A stretch of DNA of 50,109 bases, taken from positions 1-50,109 of IMG/VR virus record IMGVR_UViG_3300017782_000029; one strand, written 5' to 3'. The notes beneath the pieces were generated by a model, which searched no databases, had not been told where the DNA came from, and saw nothing but the letters and a program-made list of their open reading frames with translations. Made by a program: the position numbers and the translations under genes. Positions 16,001-33,004 of the stretch are shown here, piece by piece (the first letter of the stretch is position 1; each line of letters opens with the position of its first letter). Origin of the DNA: a virus.

Positions 16001-19000
16001 GTTCTAAGTTTGCTGATTTAGTAGAAAATTACAAAAGGTCACAAGGATTAAGAGATATACAGATAATGGCTGTAGGTGGTAGAAAAAAGGAAGGAACAGA
16101 AAAACACGACAACATAAATTTTTGGAAAAAACAAGGTTATAAAGTAACTGGTAAAGCGGTCCCAGTTAAACTAGGCAATAAAGTTCTTAACCCTGAACTA
16201 AGAGGCAAAACAGTATATGCCATACCTATGTCAAAAGATATACAAGGTGATATATGGATAGAAGGACCTAAATACAATATACCTTTAAGAGACATAAGGA
16301 CTATCTTAAGCGAAACGACTTCAACAAATGATTTAGTTGGTGCAAAGTTTGCTAAGCAAATGTGGTCTACGATAATGCACTTTAGTAAAGATAAGACAAA
16401 TCCAGATTTAATTAAAAGTATGTCTGATGAAATAATTAAAAGGTCTGTAGAAGGTGATTCTGAATTAAATAAAGCTTGGGATGCTCATATAAAAAACCCT
16501 AATGATGTGTCTGAAAGAAAAATACTTGAAGACATAGACAATGTTAGTTTAGAAAAATTAGCAGAAGCTGTTACAAATACTAAAGATGAAGGGTTTGCTA
16601 GTAGAGTATACGATAAAATTATACAAAAGAATATAGAAACTACCAGAGAAACAGCTAAAGAAGCTGAGATAGTAAAAGATGAATATGCAAAAAGTCTTGT
16701 TGAGGTTAGTGAGTTTGAAGGTATACTAGATAGAGTTGGAGAGCTATACCCTAAAGGTAACCTTGGTTTTTATATGCACAAGTTTGCTAAGAATTATAGA
16801 CAGAATGCTGTTAAAAATTATATTGTAGATAGGATAAGTAGACCTAAGCTAAAGAATGGTATGAAAGCTAGGATGAGACCATTTGACCACGGAATGTGGG
16901 GCAAGATAGATATAGATGACAGACAAGATGTTTTTTATTTAGATGATGGAGCTAGGGCTAAAAAGATATACGACCCGTTTTTTAACGGCGGGTATGAAAC
17001 GCTTGGTAAAATATGGGATGAATACAATAAGAAAGATAACGGCATATACAAAGAGAACAAAGAGCTTATCGAGGATATACTTGAAGGTGTAGCAATGAGA
17101 GTTCCTATGGACTCACAAAGTGGTGCACACGCATTAAAGTTTGGAGGATTTACTGGAGCAAAAGGTCAAGGAGTATTATTACACGGAAGGGTTATGGATG
17201 CACTTGGTGGTGCAGACCTTGATGGAGACAAAGCTTTTATATTTTTTGGTGGTAAGTCTGGTATGTGGAAAGAATGGAAAGAAATATACAAAGGTCAGTT
17301 AAATGAATTTGTAGATAAAGATGGAAATCAAATACCAGCTAAGAACGAAGACGCAAGAAAACAATTTGTTAAAAGTGATAAAGAATTAATAGAGATGAAC
17401 TCTAATCCTATTAGTAAGTATGACCCTAATCTTAGAGCAACTATGAGTGAAGCGGCTTATGAAGGCAGAGAAACATTAGGTGGAGCTGTAACTACAAGAC
17501 AAGCTTTAGCTTCTGCATACGATGTTATAAGACTATCAGAAAGCACTGCTTACGGACCAGTAAAATATGTTAAAGGTCAGTACCTACCTACTATAATACA
17601 AAAAGGTGCGTATTATTTCCCGGTTGAAACAAAACAAGGTAAAGTAGCTTATGTAAAACAAACGCCTAAAAAAGCTATTGAAAGATTTAAACAATTATCT
17701 AGAGCGGCAATAAACTTAGGAGCTGACCCTATGGATGAAATGGGCATTAGGTCTGCCTCTGAAATAAAACAAATACTTAATGATAGTTTATTTAATTATG
17801 AGTTTATGTATCATAAGAAGGTTGGTAAACTAGATAAAGAAAGATATATATTTACTACTGCTAGTGATTTAAATAGAAATACTACACCATTAAAAGAAAT
17901 GCTAAAGAAATTTAGTCAAAAAGGTTTACATAGTAATTACTCTCAAGCTAACAATGTTTTATATGGTCGTGATTTTTTAACTGGAAACAAGTATAGTTTA
18001 GGTGATATACAGGCAGGGGTTGGTTCTATTGATTGGGTTCCTAGAGAGTCACAAAGAAATTTATTAAACTTTATTGCAACGGAATATAAAAAAATACCTT
18101 ATGAAGATAATATATTTAGAAGGCTAGACTCTGAAGCTTTAAATCAACTATATAGCTCAAATAGGAGAGAGTTCACAGATAGACCTGAACTATTAAAACT
18201 ATTCGATAGAACAAGTATGATAAGTAGACAAGGTCCTTTAATGAGACAGATTATATCTAAGAGGTTATACAAGTTAGAGAATAGAGTAAGGTTAGCTAAT
18301 AATAAATCTGAGTTCTGGGATTTATTTCATAGTAAATGGCATCCACAATATGATGCACAAGTAAATGGTCAAAAAAGAGGAGTGATGGGGAATATACCTA
18401 GTCACTTGTATGGTAAGTTTGTATCTAAAAAAGCTAACACAACAGTTAAAGATAGGTTGCAATACTTAGAATATAAATTAAATCAAGCTGAAGATTTCCT
18501 AGTAAACGATTTGAGCGATATGTCTTCTATTAAACATATACTAAGTGTTAGAGATGCGGGAAATGTAAGTGACGAAGATTTTAAGAAAGTTAACTTAATG
18601 GTTAACGCTTTAAAAAATAGTTCTTATTGGGTTAAGAAATCTAGAGATGAGTTGAGACTAGACATACAAAAAGTTGTAGAAGAAACGGGTGATAAAAAAA
18701 CAGGAGAAGGTTTCTTAAAGTATTTAGGGCTTCAGAAAAAAGGTGGAGAGTCCGCTAAGAATCAAACAGAAATTGATAGACAGATACTATTTGACAAAAA
18801 GGCATTAAAGAAAGCTAATTTACAAAATTTGTATGACTCTATGGTACTTGGAACTTTTCAAAGAACAAACAAAAAGTTATTAGAATTTTTAGATAGAAAG
18901 CCTAAACTAAAAAAGAATGAAGTTAAGTTTAAAGAAATGCTAAGAAAGAATGGTCAAAATACATCATTAATGAGAATAGGTTTTGCTAGTAAAAACGTTA

Positions 19001-22000
19001 AAGACGAAAGCATAAGACAACATCTTGATGAATATAATAAATTATATAAAGAAATAAATCCTGTACCAAAAGAAGAAGAAACATTTATAAAAGATGTTTC
19101 TAAAAAAGCTGAAACTACTACTAAAGCAAAATACAAAACTGAAACTGGTGTTGTAGAAAATAAAATTATAGAAGCATCAGACCTTGATGAATCAGGTAGG
19201 TATTTTATGGATTATATTGAGCCTTGGGCTGGAGGTAAAAAAGGTAAAATAAAAGATAAAGATTTATTAAGTACAACGTACAAATTAATGAATCATTTAA
19301 AGCATTACCATAACTTAGACTCAAGAGACTTTAACGGTTTGTTTCGTAGTATGTTCCAAAAAAATATTAATATGGCTACTAAACAAGATTTTGAAAGTCT
19401 TGAAAGGTTCTTTCAGGATATGAGAGATGGTAGTACTTGGACTAGATTTATTAGTTGGGTTAGTGGTAAGAAAGATACTAGACCTGAAATAGAAAGAAGA
19501 TATTGGAATAGATTTCCAGAAGCTAATCAAAGAGAGTGGTTAAAATATCCGGGTATGGTAAAGTGGAAAGCTGATGTTACGCCGTTTAAAGATAGATTTA
19601 ACAATAGTATTATGGGTAGGTCCATAAGACCTACTACCGTTATTGGTGATTTACAAAACTTTGCTTGGAAAGGTGCTGAGTTTTCTTTACAAACAAGTGA
19701 AGAAGAAACTAATAGATTAAGAGATGAGTTGGCTCCTTACACTCAAACAAATGAATTTGGTAATGATTTCCACAAGATTGCAGTTTCTGTAAGAGAAAGA
19801 GGTATGGTTCACGCATTAAAAGAAATTATGGGTGATGACCCCTTACTTATGTCTAAGCAACAAGCTTATATGGATAATTACAACGAAGTTCAGCCTTTGT
19901 ATAAGAAATTAAAAAAGAAAGTATTCCCTATACCATTGAAAGATGGCACTGTTAACTTAACTGGTGAGCAAATAGTAAAGAATATTAACGATATTTACAC
20001 ACGAAAAAACAAAGCTTTAGAGACTATGATTAATGGTGATGCTGATTGGTTTGATAATTTTACTAAGGTTGCTTACGATAGAAATGGTAATCCTACTTGG
20101 AAAGGTTTAGATGCTTTATATAATAAATATTTAAAGTATTCTAAAGAAAAGTTTAGGAGAGGCGAAAGATTTGATATTAATAAGTTTGGTATTAACGGAA
20201 TGCAAGAACTAAACAAGTTAATAAGTTTAAAATTCTCATTACCAATAGCTAAAAGAAATACCAAGCTTTTAAAAGAGTATGCTGGTAAACTTGGTCTTGG
20301 TAAAAAAATTACAGAAGTTTGGGATTCTGAGTATTATTTTCCTCACGTATCTTTTGATAGAAAGAATGTAGATGCACAATTATCTAAATCTCTTGATTCA
20401 ATTTTTGCAAACAGTAAATTATCAAAGAAAGATAAATACCAAGCGGCTAAAAAACTTATCTATCAGTCAAAAACAATGACTGGTGATTGGGCACCAAAAT
20501 CTATTAGTGAAGAAAACTTTGAAGCTATGCAAGACGTTTATCAAAAAGCGGCAGGTGATAAGAAAAGAGAAGGTGCTAAACAAATATTACCTTTAGGTTT
20601 TAAGCAACCATATAGCCAATATCAAAGAGATTCTCATTTAGCTGGATGGTCCCGTGATGCTGAAGCTTATGAAGCTAATATCAAGAACTTGGTAGATTCG
20701 TTTTATAAAGAAAGTATGCTTACTTTGTCTCGGTCTCATATACAAGAGTTTTATAGAAAATTTAGAAAGCAAACCAAAGACAAAGCATTAGCTACTAGAT
20801 GGGCTAATTTTTTAAAGCTTTATACTCAAAGTTCTATGGGTTATCCTACAGATATTCCAGATGCTTTAATAAATGATAAAAAAATGAAATTAAAGTGGAC
20901 TCCTTATATGTCTTTTGCTGATAGTAATATGAGAAATAGGATTGAGTCTATTCGTGATAAGCTTGGTATAACAAGTAAAGCACTAAAGAAATATGATATA
21001 TCTAAAGAAGATGCTAAAGAATTAAACGAGTATAGTCAAAGTAAATTACAATTTTGGAGCGGGTTAGAAGCTAAGTGGCAAATGGCATCACTACTTGCTC
21101 ACCCTAAGTCTGCTATTACTAATTTATTTGGTGGTCAAATACATACTGGAATTAGTGCAGGTGTACAGAACTTAAAAAACGCTAGAGATATTGATTATTT
21201 AAAAACAAATGTCAATCCCGAATGGCGTAGTATGAGAGATGTAGAGAAATGGGTTGAGGGTTTAGGTATTGTTGAAGAGTTTTTATTGTATGAAGCTGGT
21301 ATGAATAAAGAACTTCGTGGTCGTAGAATGGAATCTTTTATTAGAGATTTTTCTAGAAAGTTAAAAGGCAAAGAAGATTTAAAAAATACAGAGCTAACAG
21401 CTTTAATAAAGAAACACAAAATTACAGATAGTATGTGGAATAAAGCATCTTGGTTTATGCGTAGACCTGAAAGAACTCTACGTAGAGACGCTTTTATAGC
21501 ACACTATCTACAAGCTAAAAAGAATTTTGGTGGTGCTATAAGAGATTATGACCACCCTTTTTTAATAGAGATGGGTAGGAGGGGAGTTAAATCTACACAG
21601 TTTTTATACTCTGCTCCTTTTAGACCAATGTGGACTAACAGTGCCTTGGGTAGGGTAATGTCACGTTTCCAGTTGTGGAGTTGGAACTCAGTTCGTTTTA
21701 GAAAAGACTTGTTAAATGAAGCTAGGTTAAGAGGGTTTACACCGGGTACAGCAGAGTATAATCGTGCTAAGCGATTAGTTACTGCTGACCTTATGGTTTA
21801 TGGTTTATCTAGTATGTTTATGTATAGTCTTTTTGATAACGCACTTCCAGCTCCTTGGAATTGGTTTCAAGATACAGCATCAGCTATGTTTGGTGACGAT
21901 GAAGAAAGAGAACGTGCTTTTTTTGGTCACCCTGCTGGACCACTTTCTATAGTCAAGCCTCCTTTGTTTAGATTTGACCAACCTATATACGAAGGATTAG

Positions 22001-22221
22001 TAGAAGGTAATTGGGATAAGATGACCGACTATTATTTATACACACTACTACCGTTTGGTAGAATCATTAAGGATGTTGTAGGACCCGGTGGAGCTATAGA
22101 GAATCCATTCTATGCTGTTGAGAAATTTACAGGTGTACCATATATACAGGGTGGTAATTTTTTACAGGAAGCTAAGAAAGGAGATGCTGATGCTAAAAGT
22201 TTCTTTTCTAATCTACTATAA
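13045..22221 (+). CDS. Giant virion protein with RNA polymerase-like DPBB motif and GNAT-like segment
   Basis: This 3058-aa protein closes the internal virion gene set. The N-terminus has a conserved-looking GFSANIIQGDDEPDTTPEKI then a hydrophobic GSLAGFLGYIPG. Residues about 965-1060 look like a GNAT acetyltransferase core (YLMPEARNKGIGSKF at 975-989, then NFWKKQGYKV). Residues about 1270-1405 hold RVPMDSQSG (1352-1360), VLLHGRV (1377-1383) and ADLDGDKAFIFF (1390-1401). This order and spacing recall RNA polymerase beta-prime (R.P...G, LH, NADFDGD) and the two-barrel polymerases of crAss-like phages and YonO. The C-terminal 350 aa (TQFLYSAPFRPMW...RFQLW...) look like the tail of other giant phage proteins. 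Polymerase activity is a hypothesis; a structural or pilot role is certain only by position. Confidence 0.65.
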   Translation: MAMQKAPWEPKANKEQTRESVVKYRLQPSLWEGNEKEIENLQKHAEYHRIPFARSKEHQDNMIMGSLKQFASGWGEGFSANIIQGDDEPDTTPEKIARQLGSLAGFLGYIPGSKFIKPLQAIAKFTRNKSIPMRVANKATQTMSKAYPTLKRDAPSIAKIFSSENKIGDVLQGAFHLGIASGVSDWRGIVDEGMPRALEAVGWGGVYGGGFRALGNMPGFGKKLQATQLDASTGLPKLKTLTGGQLFDYSVRAAVSGIVSKELAEYQHNGPLPLEQEIYEYVMGAAFSFNDTPLQTRLSRKAIHDTIKNKYGYEESFGKVPDPELHPEYDTWTPEMQKFVKRDFDAWFGADSEVKAATLMLQNQAMKNEGLTQKDIEKTMDEMVKKNIDSAELNPEGELIDPVLKSDIKKVKDIIKDNPNSEEYQDLDMHINQIDNLPGKISGGKGYVDKYITPRTGKSTMADRLVESLKIAKKWDELHTTVQGIARPKDGAVKEMIDFIQKEYKLNNIEQKEIDWWRNWAEQTRKKRLVLQTFFADGEVGFVDKGVSPTGEKKELLFEPPKMQEIFNNINTKLGKPQENFYTIADFFVRKGEEYGFTGKDVRRLQNALDKTIGPDGKPAKAKNVIRMVKSKIAKDLDQAGYYYTGGRGDKAAMYFVKKHPMVDPANRQKDLDMIQKAFENNGFDKGKFSKHLLKMGIKYKQKFRGVNDNYYKDSLINNIYYDIHNNFGFNVAQKDIPAMLNKMLSSKGFIKDAKAYNKRAQIWFNSGQTTNTRVANEYLKSFKARFKKEYKLPRDWEPLEFVGKKKDEASLVIWDDSVGIDKDNFKADRKNMERPEGFDGGIPALPEFIYALNKSNGITNEGRVNKSFIVSPNAKYGAMLGKYMFFEASPKLQEAMRKKGIHALAPESGIKQMGFRKFGNVNVKGFKGAGDKIERIDFEAQVRKLLNNKGLFINAENAKVGGKKLPQERIGDIYLMPEARNKGIGSKFADLVENYKRSQGLRDIQIMAVGGRKKEGTEKHDNINFWKKQGYKVTGKAVPVKLGNKVLNPELRGKTVYAIPMSKDIQGDIWIEGPKYNIPLRDIRTILSETTSTNDLVGAKFAKQMWSTIMHFSKDKTNPDLIKSMSDEIIKRSVEGDSELNKAWDAHIKNPNDVSERKILEDIDNVSLEKLAEAVTNTKDEGFASRVYDKIIQKNIETTRETAKEAEIVKDEYAKSLVEVSEFEGILDRVGELYPKGNLGFYMHKFAKNYRQNAVKNYIVDRISRPKLKNGMKARMRPFDHGMWGKIDIDDRQDVFYLDDGARAKKIYDPFFNGGYETLGKIWDEYNKKDNGIYKENKELIEDILEGVAMRVPMDSQSGAHALKFGGFTGAKGQGVLLHGRVMDALGGADLDGDKAFIFFGGKSGMWKEWKEIYKGQLNEFVDKDGNQIPAKNEDARKQFVKSDKELIEMNSNPISKYDPNLRATMSEAAYEGRETLGGAVTTRQALASAYDVIRLSESTAYGPVKYVKGQYLPTIIQKGAYYFPVETKQGKVAYVKQTPKKAIERFKQLSRAAINLGADPMDEMGIRSASEIKQILNDSLFNYEFMYHKKVGKLDKERYIFTTASDLNRNTTPLKEMLKKFSQKGLHSNYSQANNVLYGRDFLTGNKYSLGDIQAGVGSIDWVPRESQRNLLNFIATEYKKIPYEDNIFRRLDSEALNQLYSSNRREFTDRPELLKLFDRTSMISRQGPLMRQIISKRLYKLENRVRLANNKSEFWDLFHSKWHPQYDAQVNGQKRGVMGNIPSHLYGKFVSKKANTTVKDRLQYLEYKLNQAEDFLVNDLSDMSSIKHILSVRDAGNVSDEDFKKVNLMVNALKNSSYWVKKSRDELRLDIQKVVEETGDKKTGEGFLKYLGLQKKGGESAKNQTEIDRQILFDKKALKKANLQNLYDSMVLGTFQRTNKKLLEFLDRKPKLKKNEVKFKEMLRKNGQNTSLMRIGFASKNVKDESIRQHLDEYNKLYKEINPVPKEEETFIKDVSKKAETTTKAKYKTETGVVENKIIEASDLDESGRYFMDYIEPWAGGKKGKIKDKDLLSTTYKLMNHLKHYHNLDSRDFNGLFRSMFQKNINMATKQDFESLERFFQDMRDGSTWTRFISWVSGKKDTRPEIERRYWNRFPEANQREWLKYPGMVKWKADVTPFKDRFNNSIMGRSIRPTTVIGDLQNFAWKGAEFSLQTSEEETNRLRDELAPYTQTNEFGNDFHKIAVSVRERGMVHALKEIMGDDPLLMSKQQAYMDNYNEVQPLYKKLKKKVFPIPLKDGTVNLTGEQIVKNINDIYTRKNKALETMINGDADWFDNFTKVAYDRNGNPTWKGLDALYNKYLKYSKEKFRRGERFDINKFGINGMQELNKLISLKFSLPIAKRNTKLLKEYAGKLGLGKKITEVWDSEYYFPHVSFDRKNVDAQLSKSLDSIFANSKLSKKDKYQAAKKLIYQSKTMTGDWAPKSISEENFEAMQDVYQKAAGDKKREGAKQILPLGFKQPYSQYQRDSHLAGWSRDAEAYEANIKNLVDSFYKESMLTLSRSHIQEFYRKFRKQTKDKALATRWANFLKLYTQSSMGYPTDIPDALINDKKMKLKWTPYMSFADSNMRNRIESIRDKLGITSKALKKYDISKEDAKELNEYSQSKLQFWSGLEAKWQMASLLAHPKSAITNLFGGQIHTGISAGVQNLKNARDIDYLKTNVNPEWRSMRDVEKWVEGLGIVEEFLLYEAGMNKELRGRRMESFIRDFSRKLKGKEDLKNTELTALIKKHKITDSMWNKASWFMRRPERTLRRDAFIAHYLQAKKNFGGAIRDYDHPFLIEMGRRGVKSTQFLYSAPFRPMWTNSALGRVMSRFQLWSWNSVRFRKDLLNEARLRGFTPGTAEYNRAKRLVTADLMVYGLSSMFMYSLFDNALPAPWNWFQDTASAMFGDDEERERAFFGHPAGPLSIVKPPLFRFDQPIYEGLVEGNWDKMTDYYLYTLLPFGRIIKDVVGPGGAIENPFYAVEKFTGVPYIQGGNFLQEAKKGDADAKSFFSNLL

Positions 22222-23502: not shown

Positions 23503-23762
23503 TTTACTTCCCCTTCAATACTTGGTGGAAATACCATTATTTTGCCTTTTTTACTTAGCTTATCTTTAAAGTAAGTCCAAGGCATAAGAACTTTATTAAA
23601 GAATTTATAATGATAGTTCGTAGTTCCTTCTTTTGCATCGTCTAGTGCTTGGTCATAACCGTGACGATAACCACGCCTATAACTCGCTTCTTGTTCTCGA
23701 TGTCGTTTTTTCTCTTCTCTAGTAAAAGGTTTACTAGCTTCTTTTGCTGTTATTATTTTCAT
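23499..23762 (-). CDS. Hypothetical 87-aa protein
   Basis: The N-terminal half is highly charged and basic (KPFTREEKKRHREQEASYRR, then GYRHGYDQALDDA) and the C-terminus ends in KKGKIMVFPPSIEGEVK. I chose the ATG at 23762, which overlaps the upstream stop as TAATG with GGAGG nine bases away. An ATG two codons earlier (23768) lies too close to that Shine-Dalgarno. No family was recognised. Confidence 0.65.
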   Translation of the reverse strand: MKIITAKEASKPFTREEKKRHREQEASYRRGYRHGYDQALDDAKEGTTNYHYKFFNKVLMPWTYFKDKLSKKGKIMVFPPSIEGEVK

Positions 23763-24196
23763 TACCATCTGCCTCCTTTGGCAAGTTTTCTCATTACATA
23801 TTTATTTAGTTCGTCTGGTAATCCACCTACTAATTGCATTAACAATATAAAGTCTTGCTCATCTAACGGTCCTTTTCTTGTATTACAAGTCTTACATATT
23901 AATTGTAAGTTTTCTTTTGTGCTTGGTCCGTTTTTAGCAAGGGGTATGATATGGTCACAGGCTATATTTCTATAGTCTAATCTTTTATCACAGTAACAAC
24001 ATCCTTTTCCATATATATCATAAAACATTTTTCTTATATCTGTTTTATCTATGGTACATTTTACGTCCGCTTCTATACTTCTTCTTTTTAAAGAAGACAT
24101 TAGCGTAGACATTTTTGAAGATAACTTTTTATAAGCTTTGTTCCAGAATGTCTTATGTATAGGATATAGTTTTTCTTTAAATTGTTCTTTTTTCAT
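23762..24196 (-). CDS. HNH endonuclease
   Basis: The HNH motif is complete: CCYC at residues 66-69, CDHIIPLAKNG with D81-H82, ENLQLI with N97, and CKTC at 101-104. This is a zinc-stabilised beta-beta-alpha metal nuclease. The first 60 residues are a helical extension. It could be a free-standing homing-type or a recombination nuclease. The start has no Shine-Dalgarno; instead a G/C-run hairpin ends just 8 nt upstream, so expression may be unusual. The stop overlaps the next start. Confidence 0.85.
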   Translation of the reverse strand: MKKEQFKEKLYPIHKTFWNKAYKKLSSKMSTLMSSLKRRSIEADVKCTIDKTDIRKMFYDIYGKGCCYCDKRLDYRNIACDHIIPLAKNGPSTKENLQLICKTCNTRKGPLDEQDFILLMQLVGGLPDELNKYVMRKLAKGGRW

Positions 24197-24448: not shown

Positions 24449-24645
24449 AAGTTACTTTCTCCTTTCGTAAAGTGTAAGTGAGTTCCGAATTTCCAGAAAC
24501 TAATAGAGAAATCAATATCAAACTGTGACTTTGATTGCATAAACACAAAGCCAAACCTAAATAGATTTAATATACTTAAATACAAACCTTTGTTTAGATT
24601 ATTGTTTATAATGTTTCCTCTTAAAAGACCATTTAATAATCTCAT
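24415..24645 (-). CDS. Hypothetical 76-aa protein with hydrophobic centre
   Basis: The protein has a hydrophobic N-terminal half (GLYLSILNLFRFGFVFMQSK) and an aromatic beta-like stretch (FDIDFSISFWKFGTHLHFTK). AGGAG lies six bases before an ATG that overlaps the previous stop as TAATG, which supports the gene. The last 33 nt overlap the HTH gene. No family was recognised. Confidence 0.6.
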   Translation of the reverse strand: MRLLNGLLRGNIINNNLNKGLYLSILNLFRFGFVFMQSKSQFDIDFSISFWKFGTHLHFTKGESNLCQDKSNPKNQ

Positions 24646-25178
24646 TAACTTCTCCTAACTCGTTTTACTTTCTCAGCATAAAAGCCGGGAATAGCCTCAC
24701 CTTGGTTAAGGACCTTTCTAGCCGCTTTCTTATCAATCTTCTCTACGTGTTCCCACGTTTTGTAGACATCAGGTATAGCATCTTTATCTACTATAGCTAC
24801 TGGTCCAAGAGTTTCGTACAACTTATATCTTGCAGTATCGGATTCATATACTCCGTTTTCGTCACCAAGTTCTGATACAACCATAGGCAAGAGTGATTTA
24901 TTAAAGTAGTCTTTTAAACTTTCTACTGCTTTTTTCCTCACTCTTAATCTAGTTTGTTCTTGCTTGATAGCTTCTATTTCTGCGTCAATAAGATGCTCTT
25001 TTCTAGATAGTTCGACCATAAAATAGTCTATACCATCTACTTTCTTTCTTATTTTACCTTGTATGGTTTGCATTTGACCTTCTAATATTAACTGCTCTTC
25101 GTTATCTGTTTCCATTTGCAGGTTAATATCAGTGTCTATATACTCCCCTATTAGGTCTCGTGTTGTTTTCTTTTCCAT
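24645..25178 (-). CDS. Gp157-like phage protein
   Basis: This 177-aa protein has a long coiled-coil core (about residues 35-95) with GKIRKKVDGIDYFMVELSRK and EAIKQEQTRLRVRKKAVESL, then a beta-rich C-terminal half with VDKDAIPDVYKTW, KIDKKAARKVL and GEAIPGFYAEKV. That order is the layout of the Siphovirus Gp157 family (PF05565), a conserved phage early protein often found near single-strand annealing or SSB genes. Its biochemical role is not well established. It is coupled to neighbours by TAATG at both ends. Confidence 0.8.
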   Translation of the reverse strand: MEKKTTRDLIGEYIDTDINLQMETDNEEQLILEGQMQTIQGKIRKKVDGIDYFMVELSRKEHLIDAEIEAIKQEQTRLRVRKKAVESLKDYFNKSLLPMVVSELGDENGVYESDTARYKLYETLGPVAIVDKDAIPDVYKTWEHVEKIDKKAARKVLNQGEAIPGFYAEKVKRVRRS

Positions 25179-25330
25179 TACCTTCGTCCTTCTTTCTCAA
25201 TATGAACTGCTTGTTGAATGTACCATTCTATTTGCTTTTTAACAGAGCGTTTTTCTTTTTCTGCTATTGTTTGCAGAACTGCTTTTTCTTCTGCTGTTAT
25301 TTCAGCTTTTACAATGTGTAGTTTCTTCAT
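25178..25330 (-). CDS. 50-aa ribbon-helix-helix-like protein
   Basis: This short gene fills exactly the space between two TAATG junctions. Its sequence (KKLHIVKAEITAEEKAVLQT, then KRSVKKQIEWYIQQAV) fits the Arc/CopG pattern: a short beta strand, a helix, a turn with KRS, and a second helix. Such proteins bind operator DNA as dimers. It may be a phage transcription regulator. Evidence is pattern and coupling only. Confidence 0.65.
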   Translation of the reverse strand: MKKLHIVKAEITAEEKAVLQTIAEKEKRSVKKQIEWYIQQAVHIEKEGRR

Positions 25331-27117
25331 TATACTCTCCTTGGTAGTCTAAATGATGGAGTCCAGTCTAAATCAACTGTAAATAGGTCACCATCACTGT
25401 TTTTAAATAGTTCTACAGTCTTTTCCGAACTATCTTGTTTTCCATTAATACCAATTACTTTACGTGATGCGTTTTCTATAGCACCACTACCTTTACCTGC
25501 GTAAATATCTAGTATTTGGTTTCTGCTGTATTCTCTTGACACCTGAGAGACTTGTATAATGATAATGTCCATATTAACAGCTAAGTTTGATAAGTAGTGA
25601 GATATATATTTAATCTGTTCATACTCGCCTCTTATATGCGGCGGAGTCTCTACTAAATCTATATAATCTACTACTACTAACTTAGGTTGTAGGTCCCTAA
25701 CTTGTTTTTGAATTAAGTCAGGTGATGGACTAATAGTTTGCATAACTACGTGTTCTAGTAAATGACCATACATCTTACCGACATTTTTACTGTCTCTAGA
25801 CACATCTTCTTTACTCATACCACTAGCTATTTGCAAGTTTCTTCTGTGCATATACCAGCCACTTAATTCTAATGATAGAAATAGTGTTGGCAACTGCCAT
25901 TCCTTGTTAATAACGTTCTGATGAAAATCGTAACCTAACGCTATGTTCTGAGCTAATGTTGTTTTATTAGCACCAGTAGGACCAAAGATAGTAACTAACT
26001 CACCCGGATAAATTGTGCAATCCTTATCTTCTAAACCAAACATCTTACTAAGGTCTATTGCTCTTCCAGAAAAGTCTGTTTCTAGTCTTTCTTGTAACTC
26101 GCTTTGCAAACTACTACTAGTTTTTACATCAACTAAGTAGTCTTTATTTTTATAATATACACACTTAGGGCTACATACCGTTTTTAACAAAGCGTCGTTA
26201 CATCCATACTTATAGCCATAGTTATATGTAGATTCTACTTTATCTATTACTATTTGTGGATTTAACTGATTGTTATTCCAGTGTAGCATAGCGGCTTTAG
26301 TTGCGTCACTTGGTATTCCGTGTCTTCTAAAATGTGAAGCTACACGCATTATCGAATGATTTCTACTGCCTTTCTCTGCTCCTCTGTTGTATATTGTTTG
26401 TATGCACGGCACAACATTTGTGTTCTCACTTACCTTACCCATTGCTTTAACTTCAGGTATATCTGTACATATGGTACTTTCCATATTTCCATCACCCCAT
26501 AGTTCTGTACCCATATATGCAGTTCTTCTTGTTTGAGCAAGATGTTGTATATCTGGATAAGTACCATTCATCAGTTCATCTCTACTTATAGGGACTTTAA
26601 ATAACTGACTTTTGATATTAAGCGTATGAGCCATTCTAATGATTGCTGTTCTGCTGTACACACTAGGGTCTAACTTAAAATTAGGAAAAGCTTGTAACAT
26701 TGTTTGTTTAACAACGTATGGAAGCTCATTATCTGCCTTAAAATTAAAGTTATCTCCCGCTAACATTATATGATAGCCCGTCCCACTGAAGAAACATTGA
26801 TAGTTGCCGTCTTTCAGATTATATTCACTCTCACAAAATGCGAGAATGTCTTTAGTCATACTATGTGTATACTCATCTGTGTTATCACCTTTATCAACGT
26901 CTATTGGTATTTCATCTATATGTCTGGTACCCAAGAAACTCTTTACAGTTTTATTCTTTTGTACGAAGTCTAAGCCTTCTTCATCGTATATGTATACGCT
27001 TCTGTAGATTGCTTGAGTTTGACCAGCCTCATAAACAATATCCCACATATCATCATAAGGGACTAAGGTCCCCCTCCTTGAAGGGGAACCTATAGCCATT
27101 TCTACATATCGTGCCAC
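25330..27117 (-). CDS. AEP-type primase fused to DnaB-like helicase
   Basis: This 595-aa protein is the likely replicative primase-helicase. The N-terminal domain shows archaeo-eukaryotic primase features: EIPIDVDKG with D73-x-D75, SGTGYH at 111-116, and RMAHTLNIKS with KVPI at 161-176. A PriCT-like segment (SRNHSIMRVASHFRRHGI) and three Cys (306, 315, 319) follow. The C-terminal domain is a RecA-fold hexameric helicase: Walker A GPTGANKT at 379-386, Walker B LVVVDYID at 480-487, and QVSQVSRE at 522-529. The start is a GTG directly after the previous stop without a clear Shine-Dalgarno; an ATG six codons in is an alternative. It lies next to the SSB-like and Sak4-like genes. Confidence 0.85.
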   Translation of the reverse strand: MARYVEMAIGSPSRRGTLVPYDDMWDIVYEAGQTQAIYRSVYIYDEEGLDFVQKNKTVKSFLGTRHIDEIPIDVDKGDNTDEYTHSMTKDILAFCESEYNLKDGNYQCFFSGTGYHIMLAGDNFNFKADNELPYVVKQTMLQAFPNFKLDPSVYSRTAIIRMAHTLNIKSQLFKVPISRDELMNGTYPDIQHLAQTRRTAYMGTELWGDGNMESTICTDIPEVKAMGKVSENTNVVPCIQTIYNRGAEKGSRNHSIMRVASHFRRHGIPSDATKAAMLHWNNNQLNPQIVIDKVESTYNYGYKYGCNDALLKTVCSPKCVYYKNKDYLVDVKTSSSLQSELQERLETDFSGRAIDLSKMFGLEDKDCTIYPGELVTIFGPTGANKTTLAQNIALGYDFHQNVINKEWQLPTLFLSLELSGWYMHRRNLQIASGMSKEDVSRDSKNVGKMYGHLLEHVVMQTISPSPDLIQKQVRDLQPKLVVVDYIDLVETPPHIRGEYEQIKYISHYLSNLAVNMDIIIIQVSQVSREYSRNQILDIYAGKGSGAIENASRKVIGINGKQDSSEKTVELFKNSDGDLFTVDLDWTPSFRLPRRV

Positions 27118-27732
27118 TTAGAAAGAAGTACGACTAGTAGTTCCTGTTACTTGACCATTAACTGGTGTCGCAACAACATTACCCTCTTCTCTAATCAGAT
27201 TCTTGGATTTTAAGAATTGGACAAATGATTCCAACTCTGTTCTTCCTTTCTCTGTATTAGTGGTAATGCGAGGATATACTGTAGTATATGAAGTAGTAGG
27301 GTCCTTCTTTGAAGGCTCCTTATACACATAACAATAGTATTCCCTCTTAGGGTCAATAGGATGTGGTTTAATATGTTCTTCTAGTGACTCAAGCAAATCT
27401 ATTGCTTTACCACTTTCATCGACCATATCACCCTTTACATCTGGACCTCCGTTGAACCCTACAGTATCAGCGAACCGATACCATTTCTTTAATAAAGAAC
27501 AGGTTTTGATGTTACCATCTGCTTCTCTATCATAGGAACCCAAGATTTTCATATCAACTGGATATTGTGAACCTTCTATATCTAACTGTACTCTTAAGAA
27601 TAAGTCAGCCCAATCAAATTGCTCTGTTTGGTCTTCTAGTTCTGTAATTGCACAAGCTTGAAAGCCGAGGTAACTACTTCCTCCTTCACTTCCACTATCT
27701 ATGTCACTTGGTCTGAATGGTGCATTGCTCAT
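27118..27732 (-). CDS. Hypothetical 204-aa protein, possible single-stranded DNA-binding protein
   Basis: The protein is beta-rich and acidic in its first 60 residues (ITELEDQTEQFDWADLFLRV, DIEGSQYPVDMKILGSYDRE), has a helical middle, and a flexible Gly/Thr/Ser tail (NGQVTGTTSRTSF). It lies between the Sak4-like ATPase and the primase-helicase, where phages of this type often carry an OB-fold single-stranded DNA-binding protein. I see no decisive motif, and the usual acidic SSB tail is absent, so the role is inferred from position. Confidence 0.45.
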   Translation of the reverse strand: MSNAPFRPSDIDSGSEGGSSYLGFQACAITELEDQTEQFDWADLFLRVQLDIEGSQYPVDMKILGSYDREADGNIKTCSLLKKWYRFADTVGFNGGPDVKGDMVDESGKAIDLLESLEEHIKPHPIDPKREYYCYVYKEPSKKDPTTSYTTVYPRITTNTEKGRTELESFVQFLKSKNLIREEGNVVATPVNGQVTGTTSRTSF

Positions 27733-28595
27733 TCGCTTTTCTCCTTGTATTTTACTATTTCATTAACAATACTCTCATAATCAAATGGTAGCACTTTCTG
27801 GCTGAGTGGCTTTAATCTACTGCCTACTACACGCTCGTCGTATGCTTCAAATGAAACATAATACTTACCATCGTCTTTATTTGCTGTTGAGTATCCTATA
27901 ACATCAGCTTTAGCCGCTAAGCTATAACCTAGTCCTCTAGGTAGTTCTGGACTTAATTGTGCTTTTCCATCCGTGACTGTTGTAGTCTTTGAATGTGACA
28001 CTAGTATCAGATTACCACCTACTTTCTTGATAAGATTTTGGAACCTTTTGATGATGTCAACGTTCTTCCTTCTGGCTTTACCCCAGTCGGCACCCCATTG
28101 ACCTTCACCCATTGCAGTTATTCCAAGTTCCTGCAATACAGTTTCTTCTACCCACTCGTTTACTTGTCCAAGTGTGTCGATTACTACTGTGTCGTAAGGT
28201 AATTTGTCCCATTCTTTCTCTAGCCATTGATATGCTTCGATTAAAGAATAGACTGGCATAGGTTTTCCCTTATCTTGTCCACTTCTGTAGACAAACCCAC
28301 GCTCTGTTGGTGGAACTATCTCTATTTGAGGTGTTCCACTTTTCGTTACTTGTTTGCCGTCTTTTAAAACTGGACGACTAGGAGCGTTAAGACTCGCTAT
28401 AGTTACAACATTTGCATTATCTACAAATTCTGCACCTAAATCAGTGTCAAGTACTAAGACACCATCTGAACCTGTTTCACTCCAACTGGCACAAGCTGTT
28501 GTTTTACCAGTTTTTGGTTGACCTATGAAAAAATAAGTCAAACCTGAGGGCATACCTTTCCCCCAATCAGTACTAACTTTGCGTACTTCTATCAT
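27729..28595 (-). CDS. Sak4-like RecA-fold recombination ATPase
   Basis: This 288-aa protein has Walker A GQPKTGKTT at residues 25-33, Walker B DTVVID at 135-140, and a sensor-like NLILVSHSKT segment followed by LSPELPRGLGYSLAAKADVI. Size and order match the phage Sak4/AAA_24 ATPases, RecA-related proteins that act with an SSB in single-strand annealing and recombination. The next gene is an SSB candidate and the one after that is the primase-helicase, which supports the call. It overlaps the E1-like gene by 23 nt; GGAGG precedes the ATG. Confidence 0.8.
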   Translation of the reverse strand: MIEVRKVSTDWGKGMPSGLTYFFIGQPKTGKTTACASWSETGSDGVLVLDTDLGAEFVDNANVVTIASLNAPSRPVLKDGKQVTKSGTPQIEIVPPTERGFVYRSGQDKGKPMPVYSLIEAYQWLEKEWDKLPYDTVVIDTLGQVNEWVEETVLQELGITAMGEGQWGADWGKARRKNVDIIKRFQNLIKKVGGNLILVSHSKTTTVTDGKAQLSPELPRGLGYSLAAKADVIGYSTANKDDGKYYVSFEAYDERVVGSRLKPLSQKVLPFDYESIVNEIVKYKEKSE

Positions 28596-29283
28596 ACGTA
28601 TATTCCTCCGTATTTATTCTTGGTATTATTTGGTTCCCATATGTTACTAAATGAGGACTCAAGCAGGTATTAATATAGTCATAATAACTTAAATTACCAA
28701 CAATATTATACACTTGAGATACTATTTGTGCCGCTATGAACTGAGCCGCAAATACAGTATGTTTCATTGAACACGGGGGTTTTGGTACACTATCAGTAGG
28801 AATCCACTCGTCCATATAAGTATGTTCAGGTGTTCTACTGGTTTGTGTACATAATTCTACTGTAGTGGCACCCATACGTCCGTCAATAAAGAAATCCTTG
28901 TTATCAAGTGCAGACCACTTATCAAACAGATTCTTTCTTGATTCCATATCGTCTGTGCATACAATAGTTCTTGGATGTGCATTCTCAAATGGTAGCCATT
29001 TACGCTGATAACCTGTTATAGTTTGTTTGTTATCTGAGTAAAGACTATGCAATGTTCCTGCGGCATCTATTTTACTGCGTCCTACCATATTTGCTGGGTA
29101 TGCTGTACTACTTAGATTGTGTTCAGCGACTGTATCATCGTCCCACACTATTATATCATCCCAGCCCATTATAGTAAGAGCTTGTATTACAAAAGACCCG
29201 ATACCACCAGCACCAACAATACATATATCTGTTAGTGTATCTTGATTAATCAGGTCTTTATTTCTTAAGAATCTCTGGCTCAT
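28573..29283 (-). CDS. ThiF/E1-like ubiquitin-activating enzyme
   Basis: This 236-aa protein carries the adenylating E1 fold: ICIVGAGGIGSFV (nucleotide-binding loop, GAGGIGS at 24-30), VWDDDTVAEHNLSS (acidic residues near 48-50 and N56), VGRSKIDAA (K71), CTDDMESRKNLF (D111) and PPCSMKHT with C171 as the possible thioester Cys. The usual Arg of the NLxR motif is a Ser here. E1-like enzymes adenylate the C-terminus of a ubiquitin-like or sulfur-carrier protein. With Ubl, E2-like and JAB genes upstream in the same operon, conjugation is more likely than thiamine or molybdopterin synthesis. Confidence 0.85.
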   Translation of the reverse strand: MSQRFLRNKDLINQDTLTDICIVGAGGIGSFVIQALTIMGWDDIIVWDDDTVAEHNLSSTAYPANMVGRSKIDAAGTLHSLYSDNKQTITGYQRKWLPFENAHPRTIVCTDDMESRKNLFDKWSALDNKDFFIDGRMGATTVELCTQTSRTPEHTYMDEWIPTDSVPKPPCSMKHTVFAAQFIAAQIVSQVYNIVGNLSYYDYINTCLSPHLVTYGNQIIPRINTEEYTYDRSTQS

Positions 29284-29420
29284 TTGTATTCTCCTTTCAA
29301 CCAGTTTGTTAGGAAGTTTGCCATTAAGAGAAAGATAAAAAATCCTACTCCTATTAGCACACAGCTAACTGAGATTAAAAATAAATTAATACTCCATTCC
29401 CATAAGTCTATAAGTATCAT
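29280..29420 (-). CDS. 46-aa single-span membrane protein
   Basis: This gene starts at an ATG overlapping the previous stop (ATGA) and ends at a TGA overlapping the E1-like start (ATGA). The protein is almost entirely one membrane span (INLFLISVSCVLIGVGFFIF) with a short basic tail. The double coupling supports it. Function unknown; it may tether or regulate neighbouring products at the membrane. Confidence 0.6.
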   Translation of the reverse strand: MILIDLWEWSINLFLISVSCVLIGVGFFIFLLMANFLTNWLKGEYK

Positions 29421-29854
29421 ACCTCTAACTCCATAAACTTATCTAACATAGCGTAAGCTTCCTGTTCAGTACCAAACATAGCTTGGTCCTTAATCTTGGT
29501 AGCTTCTTTGTAAATAGCATTGCGTCTTTCTATTATTATACTATTTACTTTTGCACTACTTAGCTTATGTTCTTTTAAATAGTCTTCCCAACCTATTAAT
29601 AAGTCAGATAGATTTATAGAACCTATGTTAGTATTGTCCCAGCCGCCATATCCTGTTTCACCCATTAGCGTCATTTCTACTATTTTCTCTATGTCTTTTC
29701 TGGTTCTAAGCTCTACTTTACCTGCTTTTATTCCTTCCTGACATACTTCTCTGTTTTTTACAGCTTCTGGGTTTTTTAACTCTTCAGCTTTTTGATTAGC
29801 TACTTCATCTATCCTTGTTACAAGGTACTTTTTCTGTGGTATTGTTAGTGACAT
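29417..29854 (-). CDS. Hypothetical 145-aa protein between JAB and E1 genes
   Basis: This helical, charged protein (LTIPQKKYLVTRIDEVANQK, RTRKDIEKIVEMTL, then GETGYGGWDNTNIGSINLSD) has a good AGGAG upstream. It is the first gene after the structured leader at 29872-29948. I do not recognise its family. Its constant neighbours (JAB, E1) make it a candidate accessory factor or substrate of the ubiquitin-like system, but nothing in the sequence shows that. Confidence 0.7.
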   Translation of the reverse strand: MSLTIPQKKYLVTRIDEVANQKAEELKNPEAVKNREVCQEGIKAGKVELRTRKDIEKIVEMTLMGETGYGGWDNTNIGSINLSDLLIGWEDYLKEHKLSSAKVNSIIIERRNAIYKEATKIKDQAMFGTEQEAYAMLDKFMELEV

Positions 29855-29871
29855 ATTAGTCTCCTAGTTAT

Positions 29872-29948
29872 GGGGGCTGGTCCGGCTTTCACCTACGCAT
29901 CGTAGGACGCACATAGTCGGTTTTATTACTATTGGCTTCACAGCCCCC
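29872..29948 (-). ncRNA. Candidate three-way-junction RNA leader
   Basis: GGGGGCTG at 29872-29879 pairs with CAGCCCCC at 29941-29948. Inside are hairpins CCTACG/CGTAGG around CAT (29892-29906) and ATAGT/ACTAT (29913-29932). The two junction strands share a GTGAA(A)GCC-like motif on the minus strand. It fills the gap between the JAB stop and the next start, 17 nt from the ATG. It could be a cis-regulatory element, a terminator or a processing site. No known riboswitch was recognised. Confidence 0.5.
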
Positions 29949-29954
29949 GTGTTT

Positions 29955-30851
29955 TTATTTAATCCAGCCTTGGTCTATATACCAATGTGGCTCTACTGTT
30001 GGGTCGATGTCCCTTACGCTTTTAACAAATTCATCTTCTGTTATTTCATTAGATTCTAATTTGTTATACTGTTCAGCTATTTGTTCATCTACCTTATCCT
30101 GCTCCTTAGACACTTCTACACCAGCTCCTATAATTTTAACTGTGTCCTCTTCTACTGCCGCTATCTTAGTTTCAGGTTCTTTTGGTTCGTGTCCTCCAAA
30201 CATAGTTGCTTGGTTATACCTGTCGTAGTAACTGTTTAGGTTGTAACCCATTCCGTGACCACCCCAAGTTGTTTTCTTTTCTTCTTTCCTTTTCTTCTCT
30301 ATCTTATCTGCTTCGTAACGCCATTCAGGTTCTGATTTCTCTTTAAGTAGATTGCTTACTTCGCCTTCTCTCATTTGAGGAAACCCGTATTGGTCTTTAT
30401 AGCCTACTGCTGTTACGACTTTATCTTTTTCACTGGCTACTACTGTTGAGAAATACAAGCCTTCTTTACTTGATTCCTGATAGATAGCTTCTTTATCTGT
30501 ACCACTAAAGAAAGCACCCATTGTATGGTGACTATGTATTAAGCCCATAAAACATTTGCCTAATTCAGGTTTCTTTTTGTACACTTTTGGAAGTACCTTA
30601 CCCAGCTCTTCACCATCTAACTCTGTAGAAGTGCCATCACCTAGATGAATAGGTATGAAGTGCTCAAGTCTTACTTTAGTTGGAAATCCATCTCCATCTT
30701 TCTTGAGTACCCTATACCACGCAGGTCCTGACCATTCTACATTTTTAAAACGACGCAATAGATAATTGACTTTCTTCATTACTGCTGGTGGCATTAAAAG
30801 TCTGTATTCCATTTCCGTCACCACATCTGTGGACGTTGTTTGATTTTTCAT
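29955..30851 (-). CDS. JAB/MPN-domain metalloprotease (deconjugase-like)
   Basis: This 298-aa protein contains an exact JAMM motif, HSHHTMGAFFSGTD at residues 106-119 (H106, H108, S116, D119), with an upstream Glu in NVEWSG at E39. These residues bind zinc and cleave ubiquitin-like isopeptide or C-terminal bonds, as in Rpn11 and bacterial JAB proteins. After the domain come about 130 charged residues with a Gly/Tyr/Asn-rich stretch (GGHGMGYNLNSYYDRYNQ). AGAGGG seven bases before the ATG supports this start, even though it overlaps the E2-like gene by 107 nt. Confidence 0.88.
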   Translation of the reverse strand: MKNQTTSTDVVTEMEYRLLMPPAVMKKVNYLLRRFKNVEWSGPAWYRVLKKDGDGFPTKVRLEHFIPIHLGDGTSTELDGEELGKVLPKVYKKKPELGKCFMGLIHSHHTMGAFFSGTDKEAIYQESSKEGLYFSTVVASEKDKVVTAVGYKDQYGFPQMREGEVSNLLKEKSEPEWRYEADKIEKKRKEEKKTTWGGHGMGYNLNSYYDRYNQATMFGGHEPKEPETKIAAVEEDTVKIIGAGVEVSKEQDKVDEQIAEQYNKLESNEITEDEFVKSVRDIDPTVEPHWYIDQGWIK

Positions 30852-32496
30852 TGTCTAACCCTCTTGTTTCTAATCTTAACTGTGTTGAAATGTATCCCTT
30901 AGCTCTTGCATTTAAGAAATGAATCCATTTTATTCTTATGCTATCTTCAGATATATAAGGATATAACGACTCTATCATAAAGTACAACTTATGACCTAAT
31001 TGATATTTAGTACTAAGATACGAATCTCTCGACCCGTCTTCATCGTTCATTGTTTGATACATTGTATCCAGACCATTTGTTATGTTTATGGTATCTTTCA
31101 CACCATACGTTTCATCAAATGTGTATTGTACCAATGGCTCTATCAATGTTTTGTTAGTTGCATTTAAGAAATTTGCAAAACTCCTTATTGCATATAACCA
31201 GCACGATGAATGATTTAGTACATTTATTGACTGTGCACCTCCAAGCGACTCAACGATTCTTTCAAATACATATGTATCATCTAAACCCTCTGTAATTGCT
31301 TGAAAGCCTTCACTACGTTGTATCATATTCTTAACACGACGTATGTTTCTAGCTGTTGGTGTTTCTCTTCCTCTACTAGGATTTCTTAGTACATCTCTCA
31401 TCCTTCTTCGGAAGTTTGATACTGAAGCACCTATTCTAGCATTACCTTCGTAGGTATCCAGTCTCAGTTTATCATCAGTCAATGAGCTTGTAGCATCTTC
31501 ATCATTATTAACAATCGACCAGTCCATAATGGGTCCTGTATTTAATACACGCATCATAGGCATACTAGATGTTACTCTCTCCAGTTTATCTTTAGGAAAG
31601 TGTGCTAGTGTGTCTATCATTGTTTTTAGTTTCCCATCAATCGTGTCTCTTGTTGATTGTTTTAGAAGCTCGTGAACTCTACCGTATACATATAATGACA
31701 GAGATGTAAATCCTTTAGCTTTAAGCTGCTGGAAAACATCAGTTATTAATGTATCATCACGCCATCTTCTGTAGTCAGATGTGTTATTTATCTTTCCTAT
31801 CTCATCCATAATGTGTCTAGTCATTAGAAAGTCTCTAAAACTATCTTGAGTTACATAATTATGCCATTGATTCCAGCTATGATTAATATCCCAGTATGCG
31901 TCATTCCTAGTCCAATTACAACAAAAAGTAAATGCTATACTACATAGTGCACTTAGATTGTTAGTTGATATTGTCTCTGCAAACGCTTGACTGAAATATC
32001 CCATACAAGGTTTATTATCTCCGCTTACGTGTGGGTGTACTGATATGTCACCATTTATAACCTTATGTTTGTTCCAAGGTTCTGACTGTCTATTATAAAA
32101 GAGAGTCATTTTCTCAGCAATAGTTATAAACTTAGCATATTTCTCAGGTCCCATTTCCTCTCTAACGTTTGTTACTATGTATGGTTCTGTATCATTATTA
32201 TGAAACAACAACGACATACTTGGTAAAACATACGCTCTACTACCTTTAAGCTTTGGTCTTCCTAGATTGATTTTAAAAGTAAAGGCACAAGTATCTAGTA
32301 AACCAGTGTTGTGGGTAATAAGAGGTGAATGAAAGTTTAGTACCTTAGCTTGTTCTTGGTACAATGTTACACACTCTCCCATTTCTAATGTGAAGCCCTG
32401 ATTCTTACTATTATTAAAAAACCACAACGGTACTATTTTATCTAGTAGCCGCTGTTCTGCTTTTGTTACTCCAATGAGCTGTTTTTTAGCAATCAT
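30745..32496 (-). CDS. E2-like conjugating domain fused to a large unknown domain
   Basis: In this 583-aa protein the segment DISVHPHVSGDNKPCMG at 150-165 fits the E2 active-site pattern (HPN...G..C): HPH at 154-156 and C164 as candidate catalytic cysteine. It is followed by a helical NLSALCSIAFTFCCNW and DAYWDINHSW, as expected for the C-terminal helices of short bacterial and phage E2-like folds. Residues about 65-110 could be the N-terminal beta sheet. Residues 210-583 are helical and unfamiliar; they may select a substrate or act like an E3. The neighbours Ubl, JAB and E1 strengthen the reading, but the E2 call rests on one motif. Confidence 0.6.
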   Translation of the reverse strand: MIAKKQLIGVTKAEQRLLDKIVPLWFFNNSKNQGFTLEMGECVTLYQEQAKVLNFHSPLITHNTGLLDTCAFTFKINLGRPKLKGSRAYVLPSMSLLFHNNDTEPYIVTNVREEMGPEKYAKFITIAEKMTLFYNRQSEPWNKHKVINGDISVHPHVSGDNKPCMGYFSQAFAETISTNNLSALCSIAFTFCCNWTRNDAYWDINHSWNQWHNYVTQDSFRDFLMTRHIMDEIGKINNTSDYRRWRDDTLITDVFQQLKAKGFTSLSLYVYGRVHELLKQSTRDTIDGKLKTMIDTLAHFPKDKLERVTSSMPMMRVLNTGPIMDWSIVNNDEDATSSLTDDKLRLDTYEGNARIGASVSNFRRRMRDVLRNPSRGRETPTARNIRRVKNMIQRSEGFQAITEGLDDTYVFERIVESLGGAQSINVLNHSSCWLYAIRSFANFLNATNKTLIEPLVQYTFDETYGVKDTINITNGLDTMYQTMNDEDGSRDSYLSTKYQLGHKLYFMIESLYPYISEDSIRIKWIHFLNARAKGYISTQLRLETRGLDNEKSNNVHRCGDGNGIQTFNATSSNEESQLSIASF

Positions 32497-32516
32497 CTTC
32501 CTATCTCCTATTTTAA

Positions 32517-32538
32517 AGGGGGGCTTTTACACCCCCCT
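32517..32538 (-). terminator. G/C-run hairpin after the ubiquitin-like gene
   Basis: AGGGGGG at 32517-32523 pairs with CCCCCCT at 32532-32538 across an 8-nt loop. It lies 18 nt after the Ubl stop and before the Shine-Dalgarno of the E2-like gene. On the minus-strand RNA it is followed by UUUAAAA, so it may terminate only part of the transcripts. Confidence 0.6.
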
Positions 32539-32556
32539 GATTAAACAGACTACTGA

Positions 32557-32766
32557 CTACGCACCAGATGTAACCTTACTTGTTGAGAATGCAACGAAAT
32601 CGTTGTCTCTAAGGTTGTAGTTTGGTGATACTGTGTCAGACCCAACAACAATCTTGACATTCTCTAGTGAGAAGTCCTCTGTTTCAGCTATTTCTGCTGG
32701 TGTGTTTGCTGTTACGTTTGTCTTTAGTGGTTTGCTTGGCATTTGTATTGTTATGTTATTAGCCAT
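32557..32766 (-). CDS. Ubiquitin-like (ThiS/MoaD-type beta-grasp) protein
   Basis: This 69-aa protein has the right size and strand order for a beta-grasp carrier: ITIQMPSKPLKTNVTAN, a short helix near TPAEIAE, VKIVVGSDTV, then YNLRDNDFVAFSTSKV and a C-terminal SGA. The L.D.DFV turn before the end is typical of ThiS, MoaD and prokaryotic ubiquitin-like proteins. The end is Gly-Ala, not Gly-Gly. I chose ATG 32766, with GGAG nine bases upstream; the ATG at 32775 lies directly on that site. E2-like, JAB and E1 genes follow downstream in the operon. Confidence 0.65.
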   Translation of the reverse strand: MANNITIQMPSKPLKTNVTANTPAEIAETEDFSLENVKIVVGSDTVSPNYNLRDNDFVAFSTSKVTSGA

Positions 32767-33004
32767 TATTCGCATCTCCTGCCTGTTTGTTCATCCCCGG
32801 TAAGTCAGGCTTACTATCCGGTTCTTCAAAGCGTTGATTAAATGAGTCGGGTGGTTCTATGTGTTCGCAGTCATCGCATATAATGCCTAGTTCAGAGTTA
32901 TCTGATTCAGATGAACCGTACTCTTCGAACGTAGTGTTACTGGAACGACACTTGGTACACTCATACCCAGCGTAATCTCCGCCTATTATTCCTAATCCTG
33001 CCAT
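32759..33004 (-). CDS. Zinc-ribbon protein upstream of the ubiquitin-like gene
   Basis: This 81-aa acidic protein has two knuckles, YECTKCRSSN at about 14-23 and GIICDDCEHIEP at about 40-51, which form one four-Cys zinc site. The rest is Pro/Asp/Glu-rich and probably flexible. It overlaps the start of the Ubl gene. It could be an adaptor or E3-like factor for the conjugation system, or an unrelated zinc ribbon; the sequence does not decide. Confidence 0.65.
   Translation of the reverse strand: MAGLGIIGGDYAGYECTKCRSSNTTFEEYGSSESDNSELGIICDDCEHIEPPDSFNQRFEEPDSKPDLPGMNKQAGDANNG

Follow-up and report, generated by a model that had tools for sequence, protein, structure and literature searches.

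Does a virus of marine bacteria carry its own pathway for tagging proteins with a ubiquitin-like modifier? The question is raised by a virus record of 50,109 bases (IMGVR_UViG_3300017782_000029), analysed here at its full length as the window, which encodes terminase, portal and major head genes and in which a preliminary description, made from the sequence alone, had seen a complete ubiquitin-like (Ubl) conjugation cassette within a phage replication operon. To our knowledge, every bacterial Ubl system described to date is a host operon, and several of these act against phages. Here, we report that, in this virus of marine bacteria and in dozens of related ones, an apparently complete, conserved set of Ubl-tagging parts lies beside the DNA-copying genes, and that a related set is found in common human-gut crAss-like phages, where it has so far been labelled as vitamin genes.

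All four open reading frames (ORFs) were confirmed on the minus strand of the window, at the place and in the order of transcription previously described: the Ubl (32557-32775, 72 aa), the E2-like protein (30745-32496, 583 aa), a JAB/JAMM metalloprotease (29955-30851, 298 aa), the ORF of which overlaps that of the E2-like protein by 107 nt, and an E1 with a single ThiF domain (28573-29283, 236 aa). The limit of the cassette, earlier put at 32766, was misplaced: the Ubl ORF opens at 32775 and 32766 is its second methionine. Furthermore, although the set is present and in order, its genes are not all adjacent, as two minus-strand ORFs, one of 145 aa (29417-29854) and one membrane-like of 46 aa (29280-29420), lie between JAB and E1. 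The 145-aa protein, which has no match in Pfam or PHROGs, is missing from relatives L021, L031, L036, L044, L047 and L050, is present in many others and is probably an accessory protein of unknown function. A Sak4-like single-strand annealing ATPase (27729-28595, minus strand; phrog_124, 2.5e-27) lies directly downstream of E1, and the primase-helicase (25330-27117, minus strand; Pfam DnaB_C 3.8e-15, PriCT_1; phrog_19) is downstream too, as reported, but a 204-aa ORF (27118-27732) separates the two. An 81-aa protein, C4 zinc-ribbon-like by sequence, is encoded by an ORF that overlaps the Ubl start (32759-33004, minus strand); its gene lies upstream of Ubl in many relatives, sometimes 1-2 kb off, and its product is a possible accessory factor.

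Elsewhere, the window encodes, downstream of the primase-helicase, a Mu Gam-like end-protection protein (24645-25178; phrog_253, 8.5e-13), as well as an HNH endonuclease (23762-24196), a Glycosyl hydrolase 108 endolysin-like protein (1217-1714), a 3058-aa ORF to which no Pfam family matches above its cut-off (13045-22221) and a collagen-repeat protein that runs off the record end (49249-50109; Pfam 4.5e-33). Inverted GGGGGCTG/CAGCCCCC arms occur in the intergenic stretch between JAB and the 145-aa ORF (29855-29954). The terminase gives no support for assigning the phage to Crassvirales: its matches in phages are about 22-31% identical and are scattered over many phage groups.

The Ubl ends in K67-V-T-S-G71-A72 (Gly71 codon, 32563-32565), so one residue must come off to expose Gly71. 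Its AlphaFold (AF2) model, beta-beta-alpha-beta-beta with a floppy tail (mean pLDDT 86.8), agrees with the earlier reading of a Ubl-sized beta-grasp protein ending in SGA: in a fold search of the PDB, TtuB, a plant ubiquitin-like domain and SUMO were best, followed by ubiquitin, FAT10 and the Caldiarchaeum ubiquitin, with all five best matches from the ubiquitin family. The Ubl of the window itself had no family match, and tblastn against phages returned nothing significant (best E about 6). Among aligned relatives, 10 of 22 gave beta-grasp matches in Pfam, to TGS (best 6.6e-5) and ThiS (best 5.7e-4), and the family profile matched archaeal SAMP2 (0.0036) and PF1061 (0.0083), ranked behind one repeat-protein match that we discarded as an artefact of short repeated stretches. 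TtuB and SAMP2 are sulphur carriers as well as modifiers. The alignment shows no variation at K67, S70 or G71, and K-x-x-S-G plus zero to five residues forms the C-terminus in 36 of 39 distinct Ubl ORFs; two more run from KVKSG into a longer tail (AKVLFCTMI) and one ends in KVGG, while the divergent L225/L226/L233 group has a Ubl with Gly-Gly, either terminal or before a short tail. A fixed glycine followed by variable tails is what a processed modifier would show; the beta-grasp fold and the activatable C-terminal glycine are both in place.

Between the Ubl and E2-like genes lies a G+C-rich hairpin (32517-32538, minus strand; AGGGGGGT-GTAAAA-GCCCCCCT), which we do not call a terminator because it lacks a T-tract; a terminator scan found none beyond chance level. 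Folding of this gap across 43 lineages gave a mean z of -3.24, with 79% below -2, and the hairpins of relatives are strong, differ in sequence and often have GNRA or UUCG-type loops. The hairpin possibly stabilises the Ubl mRNA, and the structured gap may, by inference, raise Ubl output.

The motifs reported for the ThiF/E1-like enzyme are present: E1 matches Pfam ThiF (7.6e-12), has the nucleotide motif GAGGIGS and carries, in PPC-SMKHT, a candidate catalytic residue, Cys171 (codon 28771-28773), which is invariant in the alignment and the catalytic role of which is inferred. It thus has an adenylation domain with both nucleotide motif and conserved cysteine. The best solved relatives of its family profile are the NEDD8 E1 UBA3 (4.3e-9), UBA6, UBA1, MccB and the SUMO E1 UBA2, with MoeB (8e-6) and ThiF (1.2e-5) ranked behind the Ubl-conjugating E1s. 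E1 scored under every NCBIfam cut-off, those for ThiF, MoeB and UbaA included, and none was found in plasmids.

The metalloprotease motif HSH-x7-S-x2-D was likewise recovered, within HSHHTMGAFFSGTD, and with E39, H106, H108, S116 and D119 the JAMM signature E...HxH...S..D is complete. The match to Pfam Prok-JAB (E=1.2e-4, 22.3 bits) falls under the 25-bit cut-off; the family profile is nearest to the Rpn11 and CSN5 isopeptidases (archaeal Rpn11 homologue of Caldiarchaeum, 1.8e-5; CSN5, 1.6e-4; then Rpn11). H106, H108, S116 and D119 are invariant in 23 aligned rows, and E39 is kept in most, being missing or misaligned in a few divergent ones. Its predicted role is Ubl-precursor processing and deconjugation. 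Searched by tblastn against phages, JAB matched only Crassvirales-like and Flavobacterium phages.

The E2 assignment is the weakest link, with a block of about 40 active-site residues and the order of secondary-structure elements as its basis. The active-site sequence, HPHVSGDNKPCMG, holds an HPHx7C motif (H154-P155-H156 and Cys164; Cys codon, 32005-32007), and relatives show little or no variation at H154, P155, H156, P163, C164 and G166. The H-to-Cys distance of 10 and, in most relatives, a Trp eight residues after the Cys are as in eukaryotic E2s; the window has F172 in place of that Trp. The proposed E2-type core occupies roughly the first 215 residues; the C-terminal region after it is mostly helical and has no known function. 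With the profile trimmed to this core, UBE2W took the two top ranks in the whole PDB, its HPH and Cys in line with those of the phage core, but with weak E-values (0.017, 0.019); hhalign against five UBC sequences gave 2.7e-4, versus at least 0.08 for controls. The model is confident over residues 10-200 (helix, strands, active-site loop, helices), an order that, judged without superposition, can be read as resembling an E2. The earlier claim of an E2-like protein has support from the core profile and element order but not at full length, where no significant E2 match came from Pfam, PHROGs, Foldseek or a profile search of the PDB. Pfam UQ_con reached only 0.12, in 2 of 45 sequences, and tblastn against phages found no match; the best viral-library fold match of the model (4.9e-4) was an unnamed protein and was not used as evidence.

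Related contigs were gathered by searching with E1, E2, Sak4 and primase-helicase, using the best 80 matches per search. Among the matches listed, which included 73 distinct Sak4 sequences, E1 is present in all 60 distinct Sak4 lineages with enough upstream DNA, and the order Ubl-E2-JAB-E1-Sak4 holds in 29 of 29 lineages with at least 5.6 kb upstream, one of them with JAB in two pieces; this count is biased upward, since some loci had been fetched with cassette proteins. The conserved order proposed as a check on the preliminary description is therefore met, and the cassette is core to this marine phage group, an extent which that description undersold. In 53 of 55 lineages, the E2 and JAB ORFs share 50 nt or more, and the E1 ORF often overlaps Sak4. 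Comparison with the close relatives L005 and L004 puts the pairwise dN/dS of each of the seven genes below 1; with L005, the better resolved, values are 0.05-0.18 for cassette genes, against 0.05-0.06 for primase-helicase and Sak4, which means that E2 and E1 change more rapidly than the replication genes do. As order and catalytic residues are kept in dozens of diverged contigs, with dN/dS below 1, the cassette is not a product of chance.

Homologous sets extend beyond the marine group. In crAss001 (gp79-gp78-gp77-gp76) and nine related faecal phages, the gene order is the same; E1—annotated as ‘thiamine biosynthesis’—and JAB are homologous to the marine proteins by profile (hhalign 5e-55 and 8e-45), the E2/JAB ORFs overlap in most, and the Ubl-like domain ends in K-[IV]-x-SG (N-terminal in gp79, ending KKIKSG). 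Unlike the marine Ubl, this domain is followed after SG by an extension of about 100-200 aa; the candidate E2 carries HSH in place of HPH and lacks a significant profile match, and the neighbours are a primase and a uracil-DNA glycosylase instead of Sak4. Because profile support is weak for Ubl (E 0.006) and E2 (0.018), homology of these two is argued from their position, from the SG junction and HxH/C motif, and from the overlap of genes. The main groups (marine, L225-type and crAss) come apart in the E1 tree and in the JAB tree alike, the crAss group being less well supported in the latter. In cr106_1 (L114, 1677-2880), an HNH endonuclease gene splits the Ubl-like ORF (ending KKIKSGKF) from a C-terminal-extension ORF and sits just past the predicted processing junction. 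Flavobacterium phage Fpv1 is less clear than crAss, its E1 lacking the GxGGIG pattern and its JAB the motif searched for. E1-JAB-Ubl sets and E2-like proteins also occur in Patescibacteria metagenome-assembled genomes (MAGs) and one Verrucomicrobia MAG, possibly as a cellular relative of the phage set. Such sets were located at L117 6051-8948, L118 6034-8907 and L122 5186-8651; the Ubl ends in KIKNGG or KIKNG in Patescibacteria and in NASLG in Verrucomicrobia, the E2 of which reads HPHISNNDFCLGG.

What favours conjugation and deconjugation is the list of parts, together with an activatable C-terminus and a gene order that is conserved, and we think it probable that the locus encodes a working, phage-core Ubl pathway tied to replication, its activity, substrate and purpose being inferred. 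JAB would trim the Ubl precursor, exposing the SG terminus; the ThiF-type E1 would adenylate the glycine and probably hold Ubl as a thioester on Cys171; and Ubl would be handed to Cys164 of the E2-like enzyme and then onto amino groups of target proteins, from which JAB could also remove it. Completeness of the set, as originally proposed, now has independent support gene by gene, in what can be read from sequence as folds or family matches, catalytic residues, order, a C-terminal glycine with variable tails and purifying selection; the thioester relay, conjugation, deconjugation and targets remain inferences. Against a working pathway, there are no activity data and nothing shows which proteins carry the tag; a proteasome partner or clear E3 was not found. 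Given the fixed place of the set in the replication operon throughout the lineage, the likeliest targets would be proteins found at the replication/recombination fork of the phage, much as SUMO is attached to PCNA. Such replication-linked targeting is the purpose we prefer, tentatively and without proof.

Its main rival is host take-over or counter-defence, in which the same chemistry would tag host defence sensors or replication or transcription factors. Bacteria use Ubl/E1/E2 sets against phages, as in Bil (PMC11354881), and the E1 of the window matches PADLOC E1-E2 models; however, every lineage with sufficient sequence has the set in the same replication-linked spot, which is not typical of accessory counter-defence genes, and the frequent overlap of E1 with Sak4 also argues against this reading, which is possible but doubtful. 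Fixed position, co-inheritance in two trees and occurrence in all relatives examined are not cargo-like either, and the set has features unlike Bil, so that a captured Bil-like operon, kept for example to exclude rival phages, is very improbable despite the related E1-JAB-Ubl sets in Patescibacteria MAGs.

A different chemistry is conceivable, in which E1 thiocarboxylates the Ubl C-terminus for sulphur donation (to tRNA, for example), as in ThiF-ThiS, TtuB and SAMP2, and the E2-like protein has another role. TtuB and SAMP2 are among the nearest Ubl matches, E1s of 236-aa size are ThiF-like and the crAss homologues are annotated as thiamine biosynthesis. Yet Pfam scans of the window ORFs tried (some small ORFs were unscanned) revealed no sulphur-transfer partner near the cassette, be it rhodanese, desulfurase or thiolation enzyme; E1 falls far under the ThiF/MoeB/UbaA cut-offs and is nearer to conjugation E1s; and the HPHx7C protein is always present. 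We consider sulphur transfer improbable and retain Ubl conjugation tied to replication.

If that is true, bacterial viruses operate a protein-tagging pathway of their own, with homologues in human-gut crAss-like phages; the ‘thiamine biosynthesis protein’ annotation of ThiF proteins in crAss-like and Flavobacterium phages would need correction, and a lineage would be added to the question of how ubiquitin signalling originated. The cultured phages crAss001, DAC15 and Fpv1 allow direct tests. We found no description of phage or crAss-like Ubl conjugation in the literature, among open-licence papers only. In its boldest form, which we think unlikely but worth stating, two or more major phage groups (marine podovirus-like and Crassvirales) would have inherited their own ancient, replication-essential Ubl pathway, in which the modifier is processed from a precursor and an E2 of HPH type tags N-termini instead of lysines, making it the equivalent in viruses of SUMO fork control.

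Among known systems, the UBE2W family shares with the phage enzyme HPH instead of HPN, equal H-to-Cys spacing and, in most phage relatives, the Trp eight residues past the Cys; it differs in that the phage protein has a large, mostly helical C-terminal region, a bacterial-virus origin and no overall sequence similarity. According to one report, only the Ube2w family has HPH, and its second His can replace the HPN Asn (PMC4630614); according to another, no E2 other than UBE2W is known to modify the N-termini of proteins (PMC9527308). Extending that specificity to the phage enzyme by analogy is speculation.

Bil (BilABCD) likewise comprises four separate Ubl, E2, JAB and E1 proteins, of which JAB exposes the Ubl C-terminal glycine (PMC11354881). 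However, BilA has two Ubl domains versus the single 72-aa domain of the phage; BilD has inactive and active adenylation domains plus a Cys domain versus one ThiF domain in 236 aa; BilB has CEHH (Cys, Glu +6, His +8, His +13) versus HPH upstream of the Cys; and Bil is a defence operon whereas the phage set occupies a replication locus. Type 6d and PRTRC, which we take to be one group, also resemble the phage set. Iyer type 6d operons bring together genes for a small Ubl with C-terminal glycine, an E2-like protein, JAB and E1 (PMC1779556), but the 6d E2 lacks the upstream His of the phage protein; PRTRC membership was rejected on scores of 28.9 of 144.75 bits (PRTRC_ThiF) and 15.1 of 101.8 bits (PRTRC_A). 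CBASS type II Cap2/Cap3 and 6A share similarity of the E1 adenylation domain and a JAB partner, whereas the phage has separate E1 and E2 ORFs and a dedicated Ubl gene; the 6A-MBL model scored 35.7 of 320 bits, and scores for the curated ThiF/MoeB/UbaA models of the ThiF-ThiS and MoeB-MoaD sulphur carriers were all sub-threshold. The cassette fits no named family tested (Bil, PRTRC, CBASS/6A, ThiF/MoeB): it would work like the Bil and 6d systems, yet fails their defining features.
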